In this document: positions 1,340-9,310 of the stretch, piece after piece
Layout of the letters: the number at the start of each line of letters is the position of its first letter
Numbering within the stretch: the first letter of the stretch is position 1
NCBI GenBank assembly: GCA_030594665.1
Contig: JAUVET010000042.1
Span: 1 to 9,324, forward strand
DNA length: 9,324 nucleotides
Direction: 5' to 3'
From: Methanosarcinaceae archaeon
GTDB taxonomy: Archaea > Halobacteriota > Methanosarcinia > Methanosarcinales > Methanosarcinaceae
Notes under the pieces: generated by a model
Databases searched by the model: none
What the model was told of the DNA's origin: nothing
What the model saw: the letters and a program-made list of their open reading frames with translations, nothing else
Program-made: the position numbers and the translations under genes

Positions 1340-2872
1340 TTACGAACATGCCTGCCGATATACTCCAATGGTCTTCCTGGAAATGGATTCCCAGTTAAAG
1401 CATGAAATAACCCGATCCCTTCCGTTTTTACCCATTCTGTATCTTTTATCGGGATCGTGGTATAGATCGGATATCGCCTCAAAAAGACCTGTGGAATCAT
1501 CGGATTCGACCAAAAGTCCTGTCCTGCCATGGTCTATAATATCAGGTATTCCGCCAACACGCATTCCAATACATGCTGTCTCGCATGCCATGGCTTCTAT
1601 TAAGACAATACCAAAAGGCTCATAAATACTTGGCAGAACGAACACGTCGGAAAGAGAATACAACTTTACGAGTTCACTCTTGCTAACGTTTGGAAGACAG
1701 AGGACATGTTTATCAAAATAAATATCCTTATGACCGACCAGGATAAGCATAATATCGGGTATTTGCCCGGCAAGGTCCTTTACGGCATCAACAAGGCGCT
1801 TAGCACCCTTTTGTGGATCATCCCTACCAACAAACAACACAACGAAACGATTTTCAAGATGGTATTTACTACGGATATCATCAGCATTCTCACGCTTGAA
1901 AACCGCAGTATCAACACCGTTCGGTATCACCGTTATCATGTTATTCTTAATACCAAAAGCCTGGTTCAGTTCCTTTCTCATAGATACCGAAACTGCAATG
2001 AAACGATCAACCTTATTCACCACATTCTGTTCCATCAAAACACTAAGCTTATCCGGTCTGACCCTATTGATCTCAAGACTGTGAGCCGTCATAACCAGAG
2101 GCAGGTGTGTATTCTTTTTTGCTTCCGTTGCAGCCATCTGGATCAATCCGCCATGTGAATGCAAAAGGTCAAGTTTATCGTTGCAGATATACTTCTCAAC
2201 CATCTTTGCCACGTTAATATTGGTTATTATCCTTTTAAAATCCTTTTTGGAATAGTTTGATGTCGGTACTAAAAGTTCAGATGCACCGTGCAAATACCCA
2301 CTGCCTGATTCCCGGCCATACAATCCATCCACCAAAAATGATTGGTTCAGTTCTCTTTGTATGATGGGGCCTGATAATGCAATGGAACTGTCTACCTCAT
2401 CCCCAAAACCCTGCTTAACAACATCACCTGACACATCTAAATCGGGTCTGCTGATCCCGGCACCCTGAGCCACCATCGCCGGCATTATATTGGTCGCTTT
2501 TTTCACAGCCGTTGCAGCCGTCAGGCTTAATCCCCGATTTGAATGCACCATATCAAGTTTATCATTGGAAATGTATCCCCTCAACGTACCAGACACGTTA
2601 AAATCGGATGGCATCCTTCCAAATAAATTACTTGAACGATTAGATGCAGGTACCAGAGGTTTAGATGACCTGTGCACATGCACATTTCCTGAATCCTGAT
2701 CATCCAATCCTTCAACATGTGATGTAAACACATGCACCTGACTGATGTTATTAGCTAAATGCCTGGTAAGTTCATCCACATGAATTCCAACACCTCCATA
2801 AATTAGAGGTGGATATTCATAAGAGATAATGCCTACATTCATCTCATCTATTTGTTTCTGTTTTTTTTCCAT
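1340..2872 (-). CDS. GT4 glycosyltransferase (glycogen-synthase/GlgM-like) with internal domain duplication
   Basis: Probably transfers glucose from a nucleotide-sugar to an alpha-glucan or related acceptor in the cytoplasm. Numbered from the ATG at 2872 (510 residues): EYPPLIYGGVGIHVDEL near 19-35 is the N-terminal donor/acceptor loop of GT4 glycogen synthases; HSHGG (238-242) and TAHSLE (262-267) belong to the first Rossmann fold; NGVDTAVF near 318-325 is the domain linker; GR at 349-350 and KG at 355-356 and the E-x7-E motif in EPFGIVLIE (E418, E426) bind the nucleotide-sugar in the C-terminal fold. About 128 extra residues (67-182) are a diverged copy of 195-309; without them the length, about 382, is normal. 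The frame is open to a GTG at 2947, but family N-termini start near the ATG at 2842 or 2872; GGAG lies 12 bases before 2872. Divergent from the glucoamylase. A mannosyl- or other GT4 activity is possible. Confidence 0.85.
   Translation of the reverse strand: MEKKQKQIDEMNVGIISYEYPPLIYGGVGIHVDELTRHLANNISQVHVFTSHVEGLDDQDSGNVHVHRSSKPLVPASNRSSNLFGRMPSDFNVSGTLRGYISNDKLDMVHSNRGLSLTAATAVKKATNIMPAMVAQGAGISRPDLDVSGDVVKQGFGDEVDSSIALSGPIIQRELNQSFLVDGLYGRESGSGYLHGASELLVPTSNYSKKDFKRIITNINVAKMVEKYICNDKLDLLHSHGGLIQMAATEAKKNTHLPLVMTAHSLEINRVRPDKLSVLMEQNVVNKVDRFIAVSVSMRKELNQAFGIKNNMITVIPNGVDTAVFKRENADDIRSKYHLENRFVVLFVGRDDPQKGAKRLVDAVKDLAGQIPDIMLILVGHKDIYFDKHVLCLPNVSKSELVKLYSLSDVFVLPSIYEPFGIVLIEAMACETACIGMRVGGIPDIIDHGRTGLLVESDDSTGLFEAISDLYHDPDKRYRMGKNGRDRVISCFNWESISRKTIGVYRQACS
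1946..2290 (-). repeat. Internal duplication, copy 2 (intact) inside the GT4 gene
   Basis: This copy keeps the GT4 core motifs: NDKLDLLHSHGG, VMTAHSLE, DRFIAVSVSM and the run into the PNGVDTAVF linker. It is joined directly to the C-terminal nucleotide-binding domain, so it is the copy expected to build the active enzyme. Confidence 0.85.
2327..2674 (-). repeat. Internal duplication, copy 1 (decayed) inside the GT4 gene
   Basis: This is an in-frame copy of the segment at 1946-2290, offset 127-130 codons. Shared landmarks are LVPxSN, YIxNDKLD, HS, AAT, KK, RPD, VD, IA and ELNQxF, with about one third of residues identical by eye. Long DNA matches such as gataaacttga and gctgcaacgg also survive. 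Conserved GT4 residues are lost here: HSHGG has become HSNRG, TAHSLE has become AQGAG, and IAVS has become IALS. No stop or frameshift is present. Confidence 0.85.
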
Positions 2873-3128: not shown

Positions 3129-5033
3129 GTGAATATTGATGAAAACGCAAGTATACGAGACATGTATTATCCTCATGTAGGAGATGAAAACCACGTAAAC
3201 GGTCATCATTGCCGGGTTGGAGTAGTAGTTGAAAATAAAAATATGGGTCTTATATCCTTGTTGGGGGATGACTGGGTTCGCAGGCTTGGTTACAAAAAAG
3301 ACACGTTAGTAACCAATTCCTATTTCCGCAATGATAAACTCGACATCGATCTGCAATTCAACGAATGCGTACATCCTTTCGAAAATGTGTTCATTCGTAG
3401 AATCGTAATTACAAACACTGACACAAAGGATATCGACCTGAAACTGTTCTTATCCCATGATATTGCACTTTACGAAAACCCAATGGGAGATACAGGTGTC
3501 TTTGACCCGGCATTGAAATCAATAATACATTACCAGCGCTCCCGCTATTTCCTTATTAGTGGGTCTCCATGCTTCGACCAATATGAACTCAGTCCCAAAG
3601 AAGAAAGTAAATCCTGTTTAATGAAGTCGTCAGATCTTAATATGACATCTATCCAGATCGGAGCAGTGAACAGTTTCATCAGGTTTTCTGAACATTTTGC
3701 AGCGGGTGAGACAAAAATAATCTATTACTGGATTGCAGCAGGGAAAACATTTTTTGATGTCAAGCGGCTCAATGAACTGGTCTTTGAAAAAACTCCTGAG
3801 CTGATGATGGCAAAAACCGAACAGTACACCCATTCATGGGTGAACAAAGAAAATTATGACTTTTTTGACCTTCCTGCAAAGGTAACAGACCTGTTCAAAC
3901 ACAGTCTACTTATCATAAGATCGCAGATCGATAATGGTGGAGCGATCATCGCTGCCAATGATAGTGATATACTTGAACGGTTCAATATGGATTCGTACAG
4001 TTACATGTGGCCACGGGACAGTGCATTCATCGCCATGTCGATGGATATGACAGGTCATTCCGGAATTGCGAATATATTTTTTGAGTATTGTCGTAATCTT
4101 ATCAGCGAACATGGATATTTCCTACAAAAATACAATCCTACAGGCACCCTTGCGAGTGGCTGGATGCCATGGATCGCCCCTGATGGAAGTATTCAGCTTC
4201 CAATACAGGAAGATAGTACTGCACTTATAATCGTTGCACTGTGGAACCACTATAAGACCACAAAATGTATCGAGAGCATTAATCCACTTTATTCCTCAAT
4301 AGTTAAGCCGGCTGCTGAGTTTATGATAAGGTACAGAGACCCATCTACCGGGCTTCCGAAACCTAGTTATAACCTCTGGGAAGAAAATCGAGCAGTTCAT
4401 ACCTACACATCCTCAACTGTATTCGCAGGTCTAAAGTGTGCGGCAAGATTTGCAGAATTATACGAAGATTGTGATCTTGCAATTAAATACAATACGGCTG
4501 CTGTGGAGGTTAAATCGGGAATTGAAAAATACCTCTATGATGAAAAACTTGGGCGGTTCCTGCGAAGTATCAACCCAAGGGATGAGACCATAGATGCAAG
4601 CATATATGCCGTGTCCCAGTTCAATGTGTTACCTCCCGACGATATTCGAGTGGCCAAGACCATGGAAGCGATTGAAAGCAAACTGTCAATTAAGACAAAT
4701 GTCGGAGGAGTCGCCCGATTTTATAATGATGCATATCAGCAGGTCGAGGATGATGACATTGAGACTGTTCCCGGTAATCCATGGTTTATATGCACTCTCT
4801 GGATAGCACAGTGGCATATCCAAAAGGCAAAGAGCATAAGTGATCTGCAAAAACCGAGGGAGACACTATTATGGGTGACGGAACATGCTACAGAGTCAGG
4901 TATTCTGGCAGAGCAGTTGAATCCTTTTGATGGAAGTCCTTTGAGCGTAAGTCCACTGACATGGGCTCATGCCACCTTTGTGATCACTGTTATGGCCTTT
5001 GTCAAAAAAGCGAGATCGCTGGAAAAATCGTAA
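3129..5033 (+). CDS. GH15 family glucoamylase / glucodextranase-like glycoside hydrolase
   Basis: Inverting exo-hydrolase releasing beta-glucose from non-reducing ends of alpha-glucans; no signal peptide is seen, so probably cytoplasmic glycogen breakdown. 634 residues from the GTG at 3129, or 647 from the ATA at 3090, normal for prokaryotic GH15. An N-terminal beta-sandwich (about 1-235, with DMYYPHVGDENHVNGHH at 11-27) precedes an (alpha/alpha)6 barrel (about 250-634). Barrel motifs are YMWPRDSAF (292-300, substrate binding), LWEE (416-419; E418 matches the general acid), HTYTSS (424-429), and AEQLNPFDGSPLSVSPLTWAHATF (594-617, described by its key residues E595, the probable catalytic base, and SPLTWAHA). 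Divergent from the GT4 gene, which fits shared control of glucan storage. Family call is firm; exact linkage preference (alpha-1,4, alpha-1,6 or trehalose) is not. The start is unusual; see the ATA entry. Confidence 0.9.
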   Translation: MNIDENASIRDMYYPHVGDENHVNGHHCRVGVVVENKNMGLISLLGDDWVRRLGYKKDTLVTNSYFRNDKLDIDLQFNECVHPFENVFIRRIVITNTDTKDIDLKLFLSHDIALYENPMGDTGVFDPALKSIIHYQRSRYFLISGSPCFDQYELSPKEESKSCLMKSSDLNMTSIQIGAVNSFIRFSEHFAAGETKIIYYWIAAGKTFFDVKRLNELVFEKTPELMMAKTEQYTHSWVNKENYDFFDLPAKVTDLFKHSLLIIRSQIDNGGAIIAANDSDILERFNMDSYSYMWPRDSAFIAMSMDMTGHSGIANIFFEYCRNLISEHGYFLQKYNPTGTLASGWMPWIAPDGSIQLPIQEDSTALIIVALWNHYKTTKCIESINPLYSSIVKPAAEFMIRYRDPSTGLPKPSYNLWEENRAVHTYTSSTVFAGLKCAARFAELYEDCDLAIKYNTAAVEVKSGIEKYLYDEKLGRFLRSINPRDETIDASIYAVSQFNVLPPDDIRVAKTMEAIESKLSIKTNVGGVARFYNDAYQQVEDDDIETVPGNPWFICTLWIAQWHIQKAKSISDLQKPRETLLWVTEHATESGILAEQLNPFDGSPLSVSPLTWAHATFVITVMAFVKKARSLEKS

Positions 5034-5069: not shown

Positions 5070-5087
5070 CCGCAGGCGGCGCATTCC
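5070..5087. repeat. GC-rich intergenic repeat motif, copy 2
   Basis: CCGCAGGCGGCGCATTCC here matches 1161-1178 at 17 of 18 bases. The flanking bases differ, so the outer part of the copy-1 stem is missing. Both copies lie just beyond gene ends in intergenic DNA. Confidence 0.45.
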
Positions 5088-5110
5088 CAAACCACTGATG
5101 CGAACGATAT

Positions 5111-5252
5111 GAGACTTTTTATTATCTTCTGGAATGGTTCGGAAAACCGCAAAGAGCGCAAAGCACGCAAAGAAAAATAAGGACCCTTTGCGCTCTTTGC
5201 GGTGAATCTTTTTCACCACGATTCATTTATCCAGAATATATTAAAAAGTCTC
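5111..5252. mobile_element. MITE-like non-autonomous element (nested palindrome with candidate TSDs)
   Basis: Terminal inverted repeats 5111-5133 and 5230-5252 pair at 21 of 23 positions; the outermost 11 bp (GAGACTTTTTA / TAAAAAGTCTC) are perfect. The element is flanked by near-identical 8-mers, AACGATAT (5103-5110) and AACGGTAT (5253-5260), resembling a target-site duplication with one change. Inside sits a perfect 18-bp inverted repeat (5146-5163 and 5186-5203). There is no transposase, and at 142 bp it could only move in trans. It lies between two convergent gene ends, where insertion does least harm. It could alternatively be a structured bidirectional terminator that arose in place. Confidence 0.6.
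5146..5203. repeat. 18-bp inverted repeat built from GCAAAG 9-mers
   Basis: ACCGCAAAGAGCGCAAAG (5146-5163) is the exact inverse of 5186-5203, with a 22-base loop. The left side is a 9-base tandem repeat, ACCGCAAAG / AGCGCAAAG / CACGCAAAG, whose third unit lies in the loop. From memory, similar GCGCAAAG-type palindromes are scattered between genes in many bacterial and archaeal genomes. A small stem GGTGAA/TTCACC (5201-5206 and 5212-5217) adjoins it. Confidence 0.8.
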
Positions 5253-5317
5253 AACGGTATGGACATTTTCGCGGCAAATCAAATATCTGGCCAAACCATC
5301 AGTTCAGTTATTGCACT

Positions 5318-5354
5318 GAACAAAAACAAGTTATTCCCAAAGTTCCTTTGAACG
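5318..5354 (-). repeat. Duplicate of the proC 3' end
   Basis: The 37 bases here match 5389-5425 at about 33 positions, offset 71. On the minus strand they read RSKELWE-stop against RSKELGK-stop in proC, so the last codons, the stop and the bases after it are all repeated. An in-frame TGA lies three codons before RSKEL in this copy, so it is not a longer gene remnant in that frame. Confidence 0.7.
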
Positions 5355-5401
5355 CTGTTCTCAAAACCGCATGTGTTGGTCCGGATTGGAACAAACACAA
5401 G

Positions 5402-6217
5402 TTATTTTCCAAGTTCCTTTGAACGATTTGATGAAGCGATAACTGCATTCATGAATGCTGCACGAATGCCGTGTTCCTCAAGTTCCCGGATTGCACGTAT
5501 GGTCGTACCGGCAGGAGATGTTACCATATCCTTCAGTTCGGCTGGATGGGTTTTAGTCTCAAGTACCATCTTCGCAGCACCAAGAACCGTCTGGGCAGCA
5601 AGTGTCAGTGCACTATTGCGGTCAAGTCCCTCATAGACCCCGCCATCTGCCATGGCTTCGATGACCGGAAAAATAAATGCAGGTCCACTGCCGGAGAGTC
5701 CGGTGACAGCATCCATCAAGTGTTCAGGAACCACTATTGCACTTCCAACAGCCTTGAATATTGCAAGTGCGGATTCGGTATCATCAATAGAAGCGCTTGC
5801 ACAGGGACAGATTGCAGACGCAGCTTCTGCAACAGTTGCAGCAATATTTGGCATGACCCTGACAATTCTTGTGCCGGGGTTTAACCCACTCTCAATATCC
5901 GCAAGCGGCACACCGGCAGCAATTGATATCACCAGCTTGTCTGCTGTGACTGAATCTTTGATCCCTGCAAGTATTGTGCCAAGTATTTGCGGTTTCACTG
6001 CAAGGATCACGATATCGGAATTTGAAATTGTCTCATTATTGTCAACAGATATGTTAATACCAAGTTCACTGTGCAGCCTCTCAAGTCCGGCTTTATACAC
6101 ATCACTTGCATAGATATTACTGCTATCCACAGCCCCTGCATTGATAATACCGCGGATCAATGCCTCGCCCATCTTTCCAGCCCCTATAAAGCCGATCTTC
6201 TTGTTTGTCAGAGTCAT
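5402..6217 (-). CDS. proC: Pyrroline-5-carboxylate reductase
   Basis: Reduces pyrroline-5-carboxylate to L-proline with NAD(P)H, the last step of proline synthesis, in the cytoplasm. 271 residues, the usual length. An N-terminal Rossmann fold opens with IGFIGAGKMGEALIRG (8-23), AVKPQ (73-77) lies in the fold core, and VMPNIAA (121-127) is typical of the family. The C-terminal helical dimerisation domain carries LSGSGPAF (174-181) and the P5CR signature ELKDMVTSPAGTTIRAIREL (227-246). All expected motifs are intact. The ATG at 6217 has AAGGTG as a Shine-Dalgarno site (centre near 6226), formed from the last unit of a heptamer array. No proA or proB is seen. It lies 93 bases after the AOR gene on the same strand and could be read from its own promoter or by read-through. 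Confidence 0.95.
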   Translation of the reverse strand: MTLTNKKIGFIGAGKMGEALIRGIINAGAVDSSNIYASDVYKAGLERLHSELGINISVDNNETISNSDIVILAVKPQILGTILAGIKDSVTADKLVISIAAGVPLADIESGLNPGTRIVRVMPNIAATVAEAASAICPCASASIDDTESALAIFKAVGSAIVVPEHLMDAVTGLSGSGPAFIFPVIEAMADGGVYEGLDRNSALTLAAQTVLGAAKMVLETKTHPAELKDMVTSPAGTTIRAIRELEEHGIRAAFMNAVIASSNRSKELGK

Positions 6218-6310: not shown

Positions 6311-8167
6311 TCAAAGGAACCCACATTCACGCATTTGCTCATCGGAAGGTCTGCCTTCCCTGTCCCAGCCACGTCGTTCATAATAGACATCAAGCATGTG
6401 CTCATAAAAGTCCCGATCCATGTGCGCGCCTGCCTGTGGTCCTGTTTTGATCGGATCGTTGAATGTTCTCTCTGGCGGATAATCGTCTGCTCTTGTGACA
6501 CCCAGACGCAAGTTAATGGCACGTGTCAGGTCATACAATGTTTTTGACCTCTCAAGCAGGTCATCAAGTGTAACCTTGATACCAGTTGCAGCAGAATAGA
6601 AATCCGCATACGTATTCTCATCAAAACCAAGTTCTATCCATGGCAGGCGACATACACCAAGCATGTCGAACAAAGGCCTGACAGTCTGGTGATAGATGAC
6701 AAGATCGATCTTCTCTTCCAATGTCCAGTCTGCACCTACTTCCAATTCCTTTGCGATCGGCCACGCGCGGGCATGGTGTGCCCCTATATCACTTGTTCCA
6801 TACGCAAGAGCCATAGTAACACCAACCCTTCCGTCATATGCTGACTGGTCCATTCCCTTTACATGAGAGATAATAGGTTCTAACTGGGGGAACTTCTTAA
6901 TGACACCATACGGACCCTCGGCAAGTACATCGCCAATCCCGTCCCTGTTCGCGATCTTTTCCAAAAGTAACATTATAGATGAATCATCACCCCAGCTAAG
7001 CGCAATTCCATCTACATCCTCAAGTGTGAGCAATCCACGCTCATACCCTTCAATAACCGTAGCGATCATGCTGCCTGATGTGATCGTATCGATCCCGAGT
7101 TCGTCGCAAAGATAGTTGCCGCGCAAAACCGCAGAAAAATCATTGATGCCGACATTGGAACCAAGCATTGCCGCGCTTTCGTATTCCGGCCCTTCTGTTA
7201 CGGTTCCGGCATATTTCCCGCTTTTTACAAGACAGATATTGCCGCAAGCCATCGGACAGGAATAACATGCGCTGTCCCCGATCTTATGCTGAGAAGTCAT
7301 AACTTCACCATTGATCTTATCGGCATCTTCGAAATGAGCATCGCTAAAGTTTCGGGTCGGGATTATACCCAATGTGTTGGCATAATCGATCACAGACATC
7401 AGTCCCTCTTCCTGCCAGAATTTCATCATCGGATGGTCATGAAGTGACTTGTATGCCTTATCACTAAGTTCAACAAGCTTGTCCATATCATATACAGGCA
7501 GGTCTTTTGTACCCCGCACGGCAATAGCCTTTATGTTTTTTGAACCGAAGATCGCACCCATGCCTGTTCTTCCGGCATTCCTGCTCCATTCGGAATTTAT
7601 ACATGCGAACTTGACAAGATTCTCCCCGGCAATCCCGATCGTTGCGACCTTAACCGCTTCATCACGAAGATCCTCCTTGAGTTCGCGTTCGGTTTCGGTG
7701 CTTTTCATGCCTTTGTACTTTGAAGCATCCCGTATTTCCACTACATCATCATCTATCCAAATATATGAGAACTCTTTGGCACGTCCGTGTATGACCAGCG
7801 CATCGTATCCGGCCTGGCGGATCTCAACACCAAACATACCGCCCATGTTACTGTCCGCATAAATGCCTGTCAATGGCGATATTGATACAAATGCGGTCTT
7901 ACCCGAAGATGGGAGATAGAGTCCGCTCAAGATACCGGGGGCAATCACAATAATATTTTCAGGATCAAGAGGTTTGACTCCATCTTTCAGGTTATCCATA
8001 ACGATCTTTGCACCAAATCCCCTGCCACCGATGTATTTGAGTGCGAAATCCTCATCGTATTCTTCAATATAGGAGTCGCCTGCCGTAAGGTCGATATGCA
8101 GGATCTTTCCAAGATATCCTCCCTTTATCCTTACACTGTCCGCAATGGTAATACTATCACTGCTCAT
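6311..8167 (-). CDS. Tungsten-dependent aldehyde:ferredoxin oxidoreductase, large subunit
   Basis: Oxidises an aldehyde to its acid (or the reverse) and passes electrons to iron-sulfur clusters; cytoplasmic. 618 residues from the ATG at 8167, usual for AOR. Seen: IGGRGFGAK (46-54) and AGRTGMGAIFGSKNIKAI (198-215) of the pterin-binding N-terminal domain; C301-x2-C304-x3-C308 plus C506 in DMLGVC ligating one [4Fe-4S] cluster; GAHHARAWP (462-470) near the active site; and the usual YYERRGWDREG ending. The ATG at 8167 is chosen over GTG 8176 and ATG 8173 because GGGGTGAT (8179-8172) is its Shine-Dalgarno site. It overlaps the polyferredoxin gene by 11 bases, so the two are translationally coupled and most likely form one heteromeric enzyme, like WOR5 of Pyrococcus or bacterial AorAB. 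The aldehyde substrate cannot be told from sequence. A palindrome CTTTGA-AG-TCAAAG (6303-6316) overlaps the stop. Confidence 0.92.
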   Translation of the reverse strand: MSSDSITIADSVRIKGGYLGKILHIDLTAGDSYIEEYDEDFALKYIGGRGFGAKIVMDNLKDGVKPLDPENIIVIAPGILSGLYLPSSGKTAFVSISPLTGIYADSNMGGMFGVEIRQAGYDALVIHGRAKEFSYIWIDDDVVEIRDASKYKGMKSTETERELKEDLRDEAVKVATIGIAGENLVKFACINSEWSRNAGRTGMGAIFGSKNIKAIAVRGTKDLPVYDMDKLVELSDKAYKSLHDHPMMKFWQEEGLMSVIDYANTLGIIPTRNFSDAHFEDADKINGEVMTSQHKIGDSACYSCPMACGNICLVKSGKYAGTVTEGPEYESAAMLGSNVGINDFSAVLRGNYLCDELGIDTITSGSMIATVIEGYERGLLTLEDVDGIALSWGDDSSIMLLLEKIANRDGIGDVLAEGPYGVIKKFPQLEPIISHVKGMDQSAYDGRVGVTMALAYGTSDIGAHHARAWPIAKELEVGADWTLEEKIDLVIYHQTVRPLFDMLGVCRLPWIELGFDENTYADFYSAATGIKVTLDDLLERSKTLYDLTRAINLRLGVTRADDYPPERTFNDPIKTGPQAGAHMDRDFYEHMLDVYYERRGWDREGRPSDEQMRECGFL

Positions 8168-8780
8168 CAGCATCACCCCTTTCTGGCTTCATTTTATCTT
8201 TGCGAAGTCCACCTGTCTCGATCTGTGCATACTCCAATTTCTTTTTTACACCATGCTCGAAGTATTCCATCTCTTTGAGATGTGCATATTTCAGTGTGTC
8301 AATTAAACGATTTGCCTGTCCGAGCGTGTGCTCAGGTACATAAATAATAGCGTTTTTCGGACATGCTTTTACACATTGTGGGTCGCCGCCGCACAGTTCA
8401 CATTTGATCGGCTCGTCCAGATCGGCATGTACATAGATCGCACCGAACGGACATGCGGTTACACATGCATGACACCCCATACATTCACTGTTGTTGATCT
8501 TAACAATCCCGTTCTCAATGTATATTGCATCGGTAGGACAACTTTCCATGCATTTCGGGTCTTTGCATTGTTTGCACACGATCGGCATCTTGATGACGGG
8601 GTGAGGATATAGTGAAAGTACCCTTATGCGTGCTTTTTTGGGATTGTTAACCTTGTTGTTGTGAATGGCACATACGATCTCGCATGTACGGCATCCGGAA
8701 CAACGTTCAGGCACGATGGTTAGTGCCAATGTTTGGGAGGTGGATACTTGCTCCCGGTCTTTGTCCTGATCCATATTCAT
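8157..8780 (-). CDS. Polyferredoxin electron-transfer subunit with four [4Fe-4S] clusters
   Basis: Electron-carrying small subunit, probably partner of the downstream AOR. 207 residues from the ATG at 8780. Sixteen cysteines fall in four groups: C27-C30-C33-C37, C69-C72-C77-C81 (followed by P), C100-C103-C106-C110 (P), and C127-C130-C136-C140 (P). The order and the longer spacings in groups two and four match HycB/AorA-type four-cluster ferredoxins. The C-terminal 60 residues are charged and helical, as in subunits that wrap around a partner. The frame continues upstream to 8897, but that would overlap the MBF1 gene and adds an unrelated repetitive stretch; ATG 8780 or 8774 is preferred, neither with a strong Shine-Dalgarno site. 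The stop overlaps the AOR start. About 50 bases separate it from MBF1, so it may be in the same operon or have its own promoter. Confidence 0.88.
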   Translation of the reverse strand: MNMDQDKDREQVSTSQTLALTIVPERCSGCRTCEIVCAIHNNKVNNPKKARIRVLSLYPHPVIKMPIVCKQCKDPKCMESCPTDAIYIENGIVKINNSECMGCHACVTACPFGAIYVHADLDEPIKCELCGGDPQCVKACPKNAIIYVPEHTLGQANRLIDTLKYAHLKEMEYFEHGVKKKLEYAQIETGGLRKDKMKPERGDADEQ

Positions 8781-8791
8781 CGCTTCTTTTA

Positions 8792-8818
8792 TGCTGTAAT
8801 TATTGTAATCATTGTAAT
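8792..8818 (-). repeat. Three 9-base units before the polyferredoxin gene
   Basis: On the minus strand ATTACAATG, ATTACAATA and ATTACAGCA follow each other (last unit diverged) in the 50-base gap after MBF1. The stretch is AT-rich and could include a promoter for the polyferredoxin-AOR pair or bind a regulator; nothing more specific can be said. Confidence 0.45.
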
Positions 8819-8830
8819 TTGTAAAATAGT

Positions 8831-9310
8831 TCACTTTCGTTGGATCTTCACAATATCCCCAAGAGTTGTGCCTTTGCTCAAGCTTCCGCCGCTCCATTCG
8901 GATTCCCTTGTACGTTCAGTGAGTTTAATATTAAGTGTATATTCAAGTTTTTTAATAATTGGATCTTCCGGTGTAATATCACCACGCTCGATCTTTTTGA
9001 GAAGGGATGCTTTTTCCTTGATCTTTACAGCCAGTTGATCCTGTGACCAGCTGTGATCTCTACGTGCATCCCGAATAATTGTTTCGTAATCATCAACAAG
9101 TTCATCACTTACAGTTTCAAATGATTTTCTTGGGGCACGCCTTGTTGGAATACTGCGTACAACAGGTGTTACCTTTCTTGATACAGGCATGCGTTTGTTG
9201 GAAACAGTACCGTGCTGCGAGCACTTAACGCACACATCCAGTTCACTTCCGTCAATGGCAACTTTAATAGGTTTACCATGTATTTCCGCACCGCATATTT
9301 CACATTCCAT
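8831..9310 (-). CDS. Archaeal multiprotein bridging factor 1 (MBF1-type transcription factor)
   Basis: Zinc-ribbon plus Cro-type helix-turn-helix protein, the archaeal form of MBF1, which in archaea has been linked to ribosomes and translation rather than TBP bridging. 159 residues, normal length. C3-x2-C6 and C27-x2-C30 form the N-terminal zinc ribbon; a basic linker (about 38-63) follows; the HTH spans about 73-130, with WSQDQLAVKIKEKASLLKKIERG carrying the recognition region (key residues S89, Q90, L93, E108). The C-terminal tail (131-159) ends in GDIVKIQRK. The ATG at 9310 is the natural start, since the zinc-ribbon cysteines follow directly; no clear Shine-Dalgarno site is visible in the 14 bases before the window end. 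It precedes the polyferredoxin and AOR genes on the same strand, but a control role over them is not implied by the family. Confidence 0.92.
   Translation of the reverse strand: MECEICGAEIHGKPIKVAIDGSELDVCVKCSQHGTVSNKRMPVSRKVTPVVRSIPTRRAPRKSFETVSDELVDDYETIIRDARRDHSWSQDQLAVKIKEKASLLKKIERGDITPEDPIIKKLEYTLNIKLTERTRESEWSGGSLSKGTTLGDIVKIQRK

Follow-up and report, generated by a model that had tools for sequence, protein, structure and literature searches.

Duplicated domains and decayed paralogues are common. When a chain is offered part of itself twice, as in the tandem duplications made in T4 lysozyme by the Matthews group, the fold reportedly uses one copy and displaces the other. Engineered insertions in this protein by the same group are treated in a passage of PMC2924343; they are short, whereas the stretch described here is natural, spans 128 residues and comes with an evolutionary series. 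For pairs of genes, duplication-degeneration-complementation is an established account of their persistence, for which a passage of PMC7982386 gives Force et al. 1999 and Stoltzfus 1999 as references. The case we report resembles it in that redundant copies have lost complementary parts and both may now be needed, but differs in that the two copies belong to a single domain of a single polypeptide. Among the titles listed by a search of the open-licence literature, none concerned an intragenic GT4 duplication or the degeneration of complementary parts inside a fold; since such a search leaves out most subscription papers, this is not absence from print. The best match among solved structures is GlgM of Mycobacterium smegmatis (6tvp), a GT4 alpha-maltose-1-phosphate synthase whose 386-residue target lacks the duplication, unlike the protein studied here. 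Also close are 12 unduplicated archaeal relatives, of which five are named (four Methanococcoides and one Methanohalophilus): they are 59-66% identical to our protein over the aligned part, and three probably share with it the pairing with a GH15 gene, which lies on a contig of equal length, but they carry a single copy of the unit.

The window, by which we mean the whole stretch of DNA analyzed, is 9,324 nucleotides of a contig (JAUVET010000042.1) from a Methanosarcinaceae archaeon. The start of its GT4 gene was set as in the near-identical database protein P0001, and residues are numbered from the ATG at 2842; the open frame reaches upstream to a GTG at 2947. The parts of the gene and its neighbor are the following.

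1340..2872, minus strand: GT4 (GlgM/GlgA-like) glycosyltransferase gene, 510 aa with the start of P0001
2717..2842, minus strand: N-terminal part ahead of the duplication, residues 1-42 (strand 1, glycine loop YGGVG, helix, strand 2)
2333..2716, minus strand: copy 1 of the tandem unit, residues 43-170, from self-alignment and repeat finder
2657..2716, minus strand: live part of copy 1, that is strand 3, residues 43-62 (VEGL..VHVHRSSKP)
2273..2656, minus strand: near-neutral stretch, residues 63-190, 384 nt (remainder of copy 1 and loosened strand 3 of copy 2)
2531..2545, minus strand: HSNRG, residues 100-104, degenerate counterpart of the live HSHGG, from the alignment of the copies
1955..2332, minus strand: copy 2 of the tandem unit, residues 171-296, from self-alignment and repeat finder
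1955..2272, minus strand: live part of copy 2, residues 191-296, with HSHGG (228-232), TAHSLE (252-257) and the remaining N-terminal fold
1343..1954, minus strand: C-terminal GT-B domain, residues 297-500
3129..5033, plus strand: divergent GH15 glucoamylase-type neighbor gene

A tandem duplication within the catalytic fold of this enzyme is real, and it is not recent. The preliminary description had claimed that the segment from the third strand to the end of the N-terminal fold is present twice in tandem, and had named a self-alignment as the check on which this claim would fall. Aligned end to end, the two copies of the 128-codon unit score 191 as protein, against 27 ± 4.4 for shuffled versions of copy 1 (maximum 51 of 1000), and 102 as DNA, against 13.4 ± 1.9 (maximum 21 of 500). 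The protein alignment runs over 121 columns with a single one-residue gap, and a repeat finder independently detects the pair at a spacing of 384 nt. The motifs are as claimed, with HSNRG and AQGAG in copy 1 facing HSHGG and TAHSLE in copy 2, and the frame of copy 1 is kept over about 128 codons with zero stops and zero frameshifts. The likeness of the copies is also still visible in the DNA, as had been noticed: codon-aligned nucleotide identity is 0.616, and 30 of the 49 codon pairs that encode the same residue are identical, where 19.5 ± 3.2 are expected. The location given (1946-2674) needs adjusting: copy 1 begins about 40 nt outside it, and at the other end it overshoots copy 2 by 9 nt. 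An assembly artefact is an unlikely source of the duplication, because the architecture is common to 34 protein cluster representatives from several sources; these clusters sum to 188 member sequences, the architecture having been seen on the representatives.

The idea of a recent duplication does not survive comparison with relatives. Among the best 120 of 7026 matches in a protein search, the top 34 clusters (P0001-P0034, 495-531 aa) all carry the duplication; the next 16 (P0035-P0050) are the 12 unduplicated relatives and four fragments, of which P0047 and P0050 contain both copies and P0035 and P0044 start inside the repeat; below P0050 these best 120 fall to bacterial-type glycogen synthases of at most 40% identity. 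Insert-bearing relatives are 56-90% identical to the window protein, and the 34 aligned rows (window protein and P0002-P0034) share one common breakpoint. On a tree built without the surplus columns they make up one side of a branch, with 0 of the 12 unduplicated rows among them, which corresponds to one state change. Support for this branch is moderate (91/66, SH-aLRT 66, not starred; present in 94% of 200 bootstrap trees). The event is therefore not confined to the window's genome, and we reject a recent local duplication on the grounds of this clade-wide sharing. Since synonymous sites are not saturated, either the duplication, though old on the scale of the clade, is not very old in absolute terms, or some conversion between copies has taken place. 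Insert-bearing P0032 and P0047 are recorded as Methanosarcinaceae archaeon and P0034 as a Gammaproteobacteria bacterium, a label that is probably due to mis-binning; a place of the host in the ANME-3 group is a guess. A second protein search with the alignment as query gave no further full-length insert-bearing member among the 120 matches listed, as judged by identity, coverage and length. Scanning genome contigs with one sequence yielded two bacterial loci, neither usable as a relative; viral contigs scanned with the alignment gave one distant locus only and no usable relative; and a plasmid search returned only places below 60% identity, none spanning 80% of the query.

Not every sequence entered every comparison. 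P0001, one residue away from the window protein, was left out of the alignments, and the fragments P0035, P0044, P0047 and P0050 stand outside all clade counts. The chimera-like P0022 was left out of the clade-excess test, the copy tree, the gamma and BLOSUM62 test, the rates from eight close pairs and the thinned gap-pattern set, and was kept in the copy identities, the own/other comparison, the copy conservation correlation, the nine-pair rate, the clade tree and the full-set entropy switch. P0034, with its long inserts, was left out of the gamma and BLOSUM62 test, of the entropy and gap-pattern rechecks and of the thinned gap-pattern set. Removing the truncated P0046 from comparisons with unduplicated orthologues leaves 11 of these.

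Which copy does the working fold use? We compared the column entropies of copy 1 and copy 2 over 126 aligned sites. Over the first 20, which form strand 3, copy 1 is conserved and copy 2 is loose (difference +0.60), and over the remaining 106 the relation is reversed (-0.89); the change-point statistic is not attained in any of 5000 permutations (Mann-Whitney p 2e-7), and the change point is identical without P0022 and P0034 (+0.53 and -0.88, 0 of 5000 permutations). Nearness to the 11 unduplicated orthologues switches at the same place, with copy 1 nearer before it in 33 of 34 rows and copy 2 nearer after it in 34 of 34. With P0022 left out and borders at residues 64 and 192, mean pairwise differences are 0.20 in both the N-terminal part and the C domain, 0.26 in strand 3 of copy 1 and 0.22 in live copy 2, against 0.42 in strand 3 of copy 2 and 0.53 in the remainder of copy 1. 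V54, V56, H57, R58 and S59, in strand 3 of copy 1, are invariant in all 34 aligned rows, and live copy 2 (residues 191-296) shows zero length changes across the same 34. MAFFT, which makes no use of the entropies, leaves the remainder of copy 1 empty in all 54 insert-free rows. As judged from these sequences, the working chain is the N-terminus, strand 3 of copy 1, and copy 2 from about residue 191. The view of copy 1 as the decayed copy thus holds for most of it, which is loose, but the border between live and dead differs from the border between copies, and copy 1 keeps strand 3. The pattern of redundant copies with complementary losses is that of duplication-degeneration-complementation, although the contrast in strand 3 is absent from the eight close pairs, in which rates relative to the C domain hardly differ (1.76 in copy 1 and 2.10 in copy 2, from 17 and 20 changes of 176).

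An AlphaFold model from 88 rows (mean pLDDT 77.5, pTM 0.76) builds the fold with strand 54-58 of copy 1 and continues it from helix 199-221, with residues 67-82 and 96-193 below pLDDT 50. Because the alignment steers the model, its outside rows being pre-placed on the proposed chain, we take this as agreement and not as independent proof; with 46 rows most of the N-terminal half falls below 50, and low pLDDT may just reflect few sequences. The charge-hydropathy index does not call the near-neutral stretch disordered.

The stretch between the two live parts (residues 63-190) appears to evolve nearly unselected at the protein level, and strict neutrality is what we infer from it. On matching columns of 32 rows, the gamma shape is 3.8 for the remainder of copy 1 and 0.40 for copy 2, and constant sites number 0 in the former versus 49 of 107 in the latter. 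Sites with at least 94% identity are 2 of 107 in copy 1, about what uniform-rate simulations give (1.6-1.8), versus 54 of 106 in copy 2; at 90% identity or more there is a modest excess in copy 1 (11 versus a simulated 6.0-6.4, sd about 2.4). Replacements in seven close pairs have a mean BLOSUM62 score of -0.36 ± 0.14 (n=112) in the remainder of copy 1, where random single-base changes in the window's codons would give -0.35 to -0.45, and of -0.55 ± 0.37 (n=20) in strand 3 of copy 2. The live parts score +0.12 (strand 3 of copy 1, n=16), +0.30 (copy 2), +0.32 (N-terminal part) and +0.54 (C domain). Stretch and live parts as wholes stand at -0.39 versus +0.41, a difference reached in 0 of 10000 permutations that treat replacements as independent. 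Length is free as well: the stretch measures 114 to 163 residues with 17 gap patterns, while the C domain and the live parts of the two copies have one each and the N-terminal part two, the second being due to one truncated start. Within this dead stretch P0034 has long low-complexity runs (N/S/L rich and P/T/S/I rich), which fit slippage where length is free.

In eight close pairs without P0022, the rate of change relative to the C domain is 3.45 for the remainder of copy 1 and 1.29 for live copy 2; with P0022, nine pairs give 4.54 for the remainder of copy 1. Depending on the constraint on the C domain, a ratio of 3.45 could lie below full neutrality, so that some constraint may persist. Between the window's own copies dN is 0.45-0.50 and dS 0.80-0.85 by three counting methods, whereas maximum likelihood saturates (dS 12); the resulting dN/dS of 0.55-0.63 comes from this single pair. 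This dN is about the mean expected when one copy is free and the other constrained. Of the decay under partial constraint that had been suggested the decay stands; the gamma shape and the random-like replacements show less constraint than supposed, though some is still possible.

Copies resemble each other slightly more within a clade than between clades. The mean similarity of copy 1 is 0.556 to its own copy 2 and 0.527 to that of other proteins, and its own is the best match in just five of 34 rows, one of them tied. Once row and column effects are removed over eight clades, an own-clade excess of 0.036 remains in the part of the unit after strand 3, which the true pairing alone of 40320 reaches; for strand 3 the excess is reached by 30 of 40320 pairings. 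This hints at gene conversion. In a tree of both copies, based on few columns, the two sets separate nearly completely, with copy 2 of P0030 in an unresolved fork beside copy-1 rows; copy 1 needs two changes and copy 2 three. Frequent gene conversion finds little support in these data, given the five of 34 rows and the small excess, though some is likely, and one duplication followed by occasional conversion fits best. Identity between copies spans from 76% in P0008 to 32% in P0032, with P0008, P0012 and P0030 at 71-76%. Decay is uneven across the clade, since copy 1 of P0008 still has HSHGG and TAHSTE and is the one 76% identical to its copy 2; that protein may fold in two registers. Two other sequences deserve mention here. 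By eye, P0022 resembles P0010 in its N-terminal half and P0030 in its C-terminal half, the switch lying inside copy 2, which points to orthologues having recombined or to a chimeric assembly at the repeat. The predicted start of P0035 falls inside the end of copy 1, because either the contig ends there or the frame of copy 1 is broken.

We think it probable that duplication, degeneration and complementation took place inside a single fold. In an ancestor of this Methanosarcinaceae-related clade, a 384-nt segment of a GT4 alpha-glucan-type glycosyltransferase, from strand 3 to the end of the N-terminal fold, would have been duplicated in frame, so that the polypeptide offered two versions of each part of a single fold. 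The enzyme would take strand 3 from copy 1, which adjoins the N-terminal part, and everything after it from copy 2, which is joined to the C-terminal domain. The unused remainder of copy 1 and strand 3 of copy 2 would then form a loop of about 128 residues after strand 3 (the looped-out fold is a prediction), free to drift under little constraint except that of staying in frame. Recombination between copies would give a whole enzyme only if the crossover fell near residues 63/191; elsewhere, the loosened strand 3 or the decayed core would be inherited. Because the copies have lost complementary parts, loss of the loop would be rare even if it had no use; this ratchet keeping the stretch in place, like the catalytic activity of the present enzyme, we infer. 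One observation sits uneasily with it: neutral DNA is expected to erode, yet the tree of 34 insert-bearing rows and 12 unduplicated relatives shows no loss of the insert within the clade. That we are looking at a natural, clade-wide subfunctionalisation between two halves of one fold, which has locked some 128 translated but unselected residues into the core of an enzyme, is a fuller claim, towards which we lean somewhat less firmly.

The absence of loss would be readily explained if the stretch were a working insert, disordered or loosely folded and selected for its presence as a spacer, by crowding or gating the acceptor cleft or by covering the dimer helices, its exact sequence hardly mattering. 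The geometry predicted by the model would suit this, as the stretch exits the fold after strand 3 and the fold re-enters at the long N-terminal helix 199-221. Loops from strand to helix in Rossmann-type folds face the cleft. GlgM, according to a passage of PMC11046441, dimerises via helices of its N-terminal domain, so a loop just ahead of that helix could matter. The close-pair rate, just 3.45 times the C-domain one, and the 11 sites with at least 90% identity where about six are simulated, also speak for a function. The near-uniform site rates, the unconservative replacements and the free length speak against it, as does the fact that unduplicated relatives keep the same gene without the insert, three of them on contigs equal in size to the GH15 one. 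A sequence-independent role of the stretch is possible, and we regard the working insert as a whole, the main rival to our reading, as unlikely. The preliminary description had also raised the option of a new insert module, and this finds no backing in conserved sites (at 94% identity or more, no more than simulated), in length or in domain content: beyond the usual seven glycosyltransferase models, Pfam families found in the 34 members are PF13477, itself a glycosyltransferase model, in four, and others in two, one, one and one.

Two further readings concern the origin and the shape of copy 1. It could be recent or repeatedly renewed, through independent duplications or frequent conversion from copy 2, clade-wide sharing then being only apparent. 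Such renewal would account for the within-clade excess similarity, for the 30 of 49 identical codons where 19.5 are expected and for the placement of copy 2 of P0030, but copy 1 is best matched by its own copy 2 in just five of 34 rows, with a small mean excess; by eye the subtree of each copy mirrors the gene tree, and the aligned rows share one breakpoint. We hold this improbable. Most improbable of all is an extra folded half-domain with a new binding or oligomerising role. Copy 1 of P0008, P0012 and P0030, at 71-76% identity to copy 2, may still fold in some lineages, but no Pfam family other than glycosyltransferases occurs in more than one or two of the 34 members, and site conservation in copy 1 is unrelated to that in copy 2 (rho 0.11, p 0.29). 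The structure prediction that had been proposed as a check of this half-domain gave mostly low confidence, below pLDDT 50, over residues 67-193, in a model steered by its alignment.

Duplication-degeneration-complementation is hard to observe inside one fold. Here dozens of related sequences, one breakpoint, an unduplicated outgroup and a sharp border between live and dead parts make it accessible, and the clade supplies its own controls. If complementary loss inside the fold is the right reading, the series from P0008 to P0032 records through time how a protein settles on one of two versions of its core, and the stretch offers a possible yardstick for the evolution of translated but unselected protein. 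Both the retention of useless protein by complementary loss alone and the choice between two copies of a core element become testable. For annotators there is a warning: even when all members of a clade carry an insert, it is not necessarily a functional domain.

As to the enzyme itself, the window protein exceeds the curated Pfam cut-offs for PF00534 (130.6 bits versus 26.4) and PF13439 (97.8 versus 28.5), and the N- and C-terminal GT4 domains are both matched in all 34 insert-bearing members at E 0.001 or better. In the 88-row alignment R340, K345, E408 and E416 of the C-terminal GT-B domain are invariant columns, E408 and E416 forming an E-x7-E motif, and so are the live histidines H228, H230 and H254. 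We take R340, K345, E408 and E416 to be the catalytic donor-site residues; a figure legend in PMC11046441 names Lys, Arg and Glu. The window protein misses the curated cut-off of the NCBIfam model TIGR02149 (glgA_Coryne, 302.4) with a score of 228.9. The insert is not the cause of this shortfall, since the unduplicated P0037 scores 231.7, and as the cut-off is missed with and without it we call the enzyme GlgM/GlgA-like and not GlgM, a putative alpha-glucan-type glycosyltransferase. Passages of the review PMC11046441 say that the function of GT4 enzymes in archaeal glycogen metabolism needs clarification, and that in one archaeal case low similarity to GlgM makes a conclusion difficult. The contig of the GT4 gene is equal in size to one that encodes a GH15 protein in four insert-bearing cases (8333, 29456, 5641 and 7832) and three insert-free ones (14243, 4168 and 62253). 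This suggests an old locus in both groups; equal size is not proof, as 4168 recurs for P0172, a GH15 entry from another source.

The window holds other repeats. A 37-nt direct repeat (5318-5354 and 5389-5425, 89%, spacing 71) repeats the 3' end of a proC-like gene, which ends at 5402, just downstream, and is a second small duplication. Between the GH15 and proC genes, 24-nt inverted repeats (92%) surround a perfect 18-nt inverted repeat (5146-5163 and 5186-5203); this segment, 5110-5253, looks like a small MITE-like or REP-like element, and the whole window, this segment included, has 0 Rfam matches at the gathering threshold. Downstream of both the GT4 and the GH15 genes lies an 18-nt repeat (1160-1177 and 5070-5087, 94%) with the palindromic core CCGCAGGCGG, a possible terminator or dispersed repeat. 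At 14-1061 there are two small genes, membrane-protein-like, the second encoding DUF1673 (PF07895); among 14 control genomes this family matches those of Methanosarcina acetivorans and Lactococcus lactis, exceeding the cut-off in one of them. At the other end, 6311-8897 encodes an aldehyde ferredoxin oxidoreductase, overlapped by a 4Fe-4S ferredoxin-type protein; after these comes a helix-turn-helix gene (8831-9310), which resembles MBF1.
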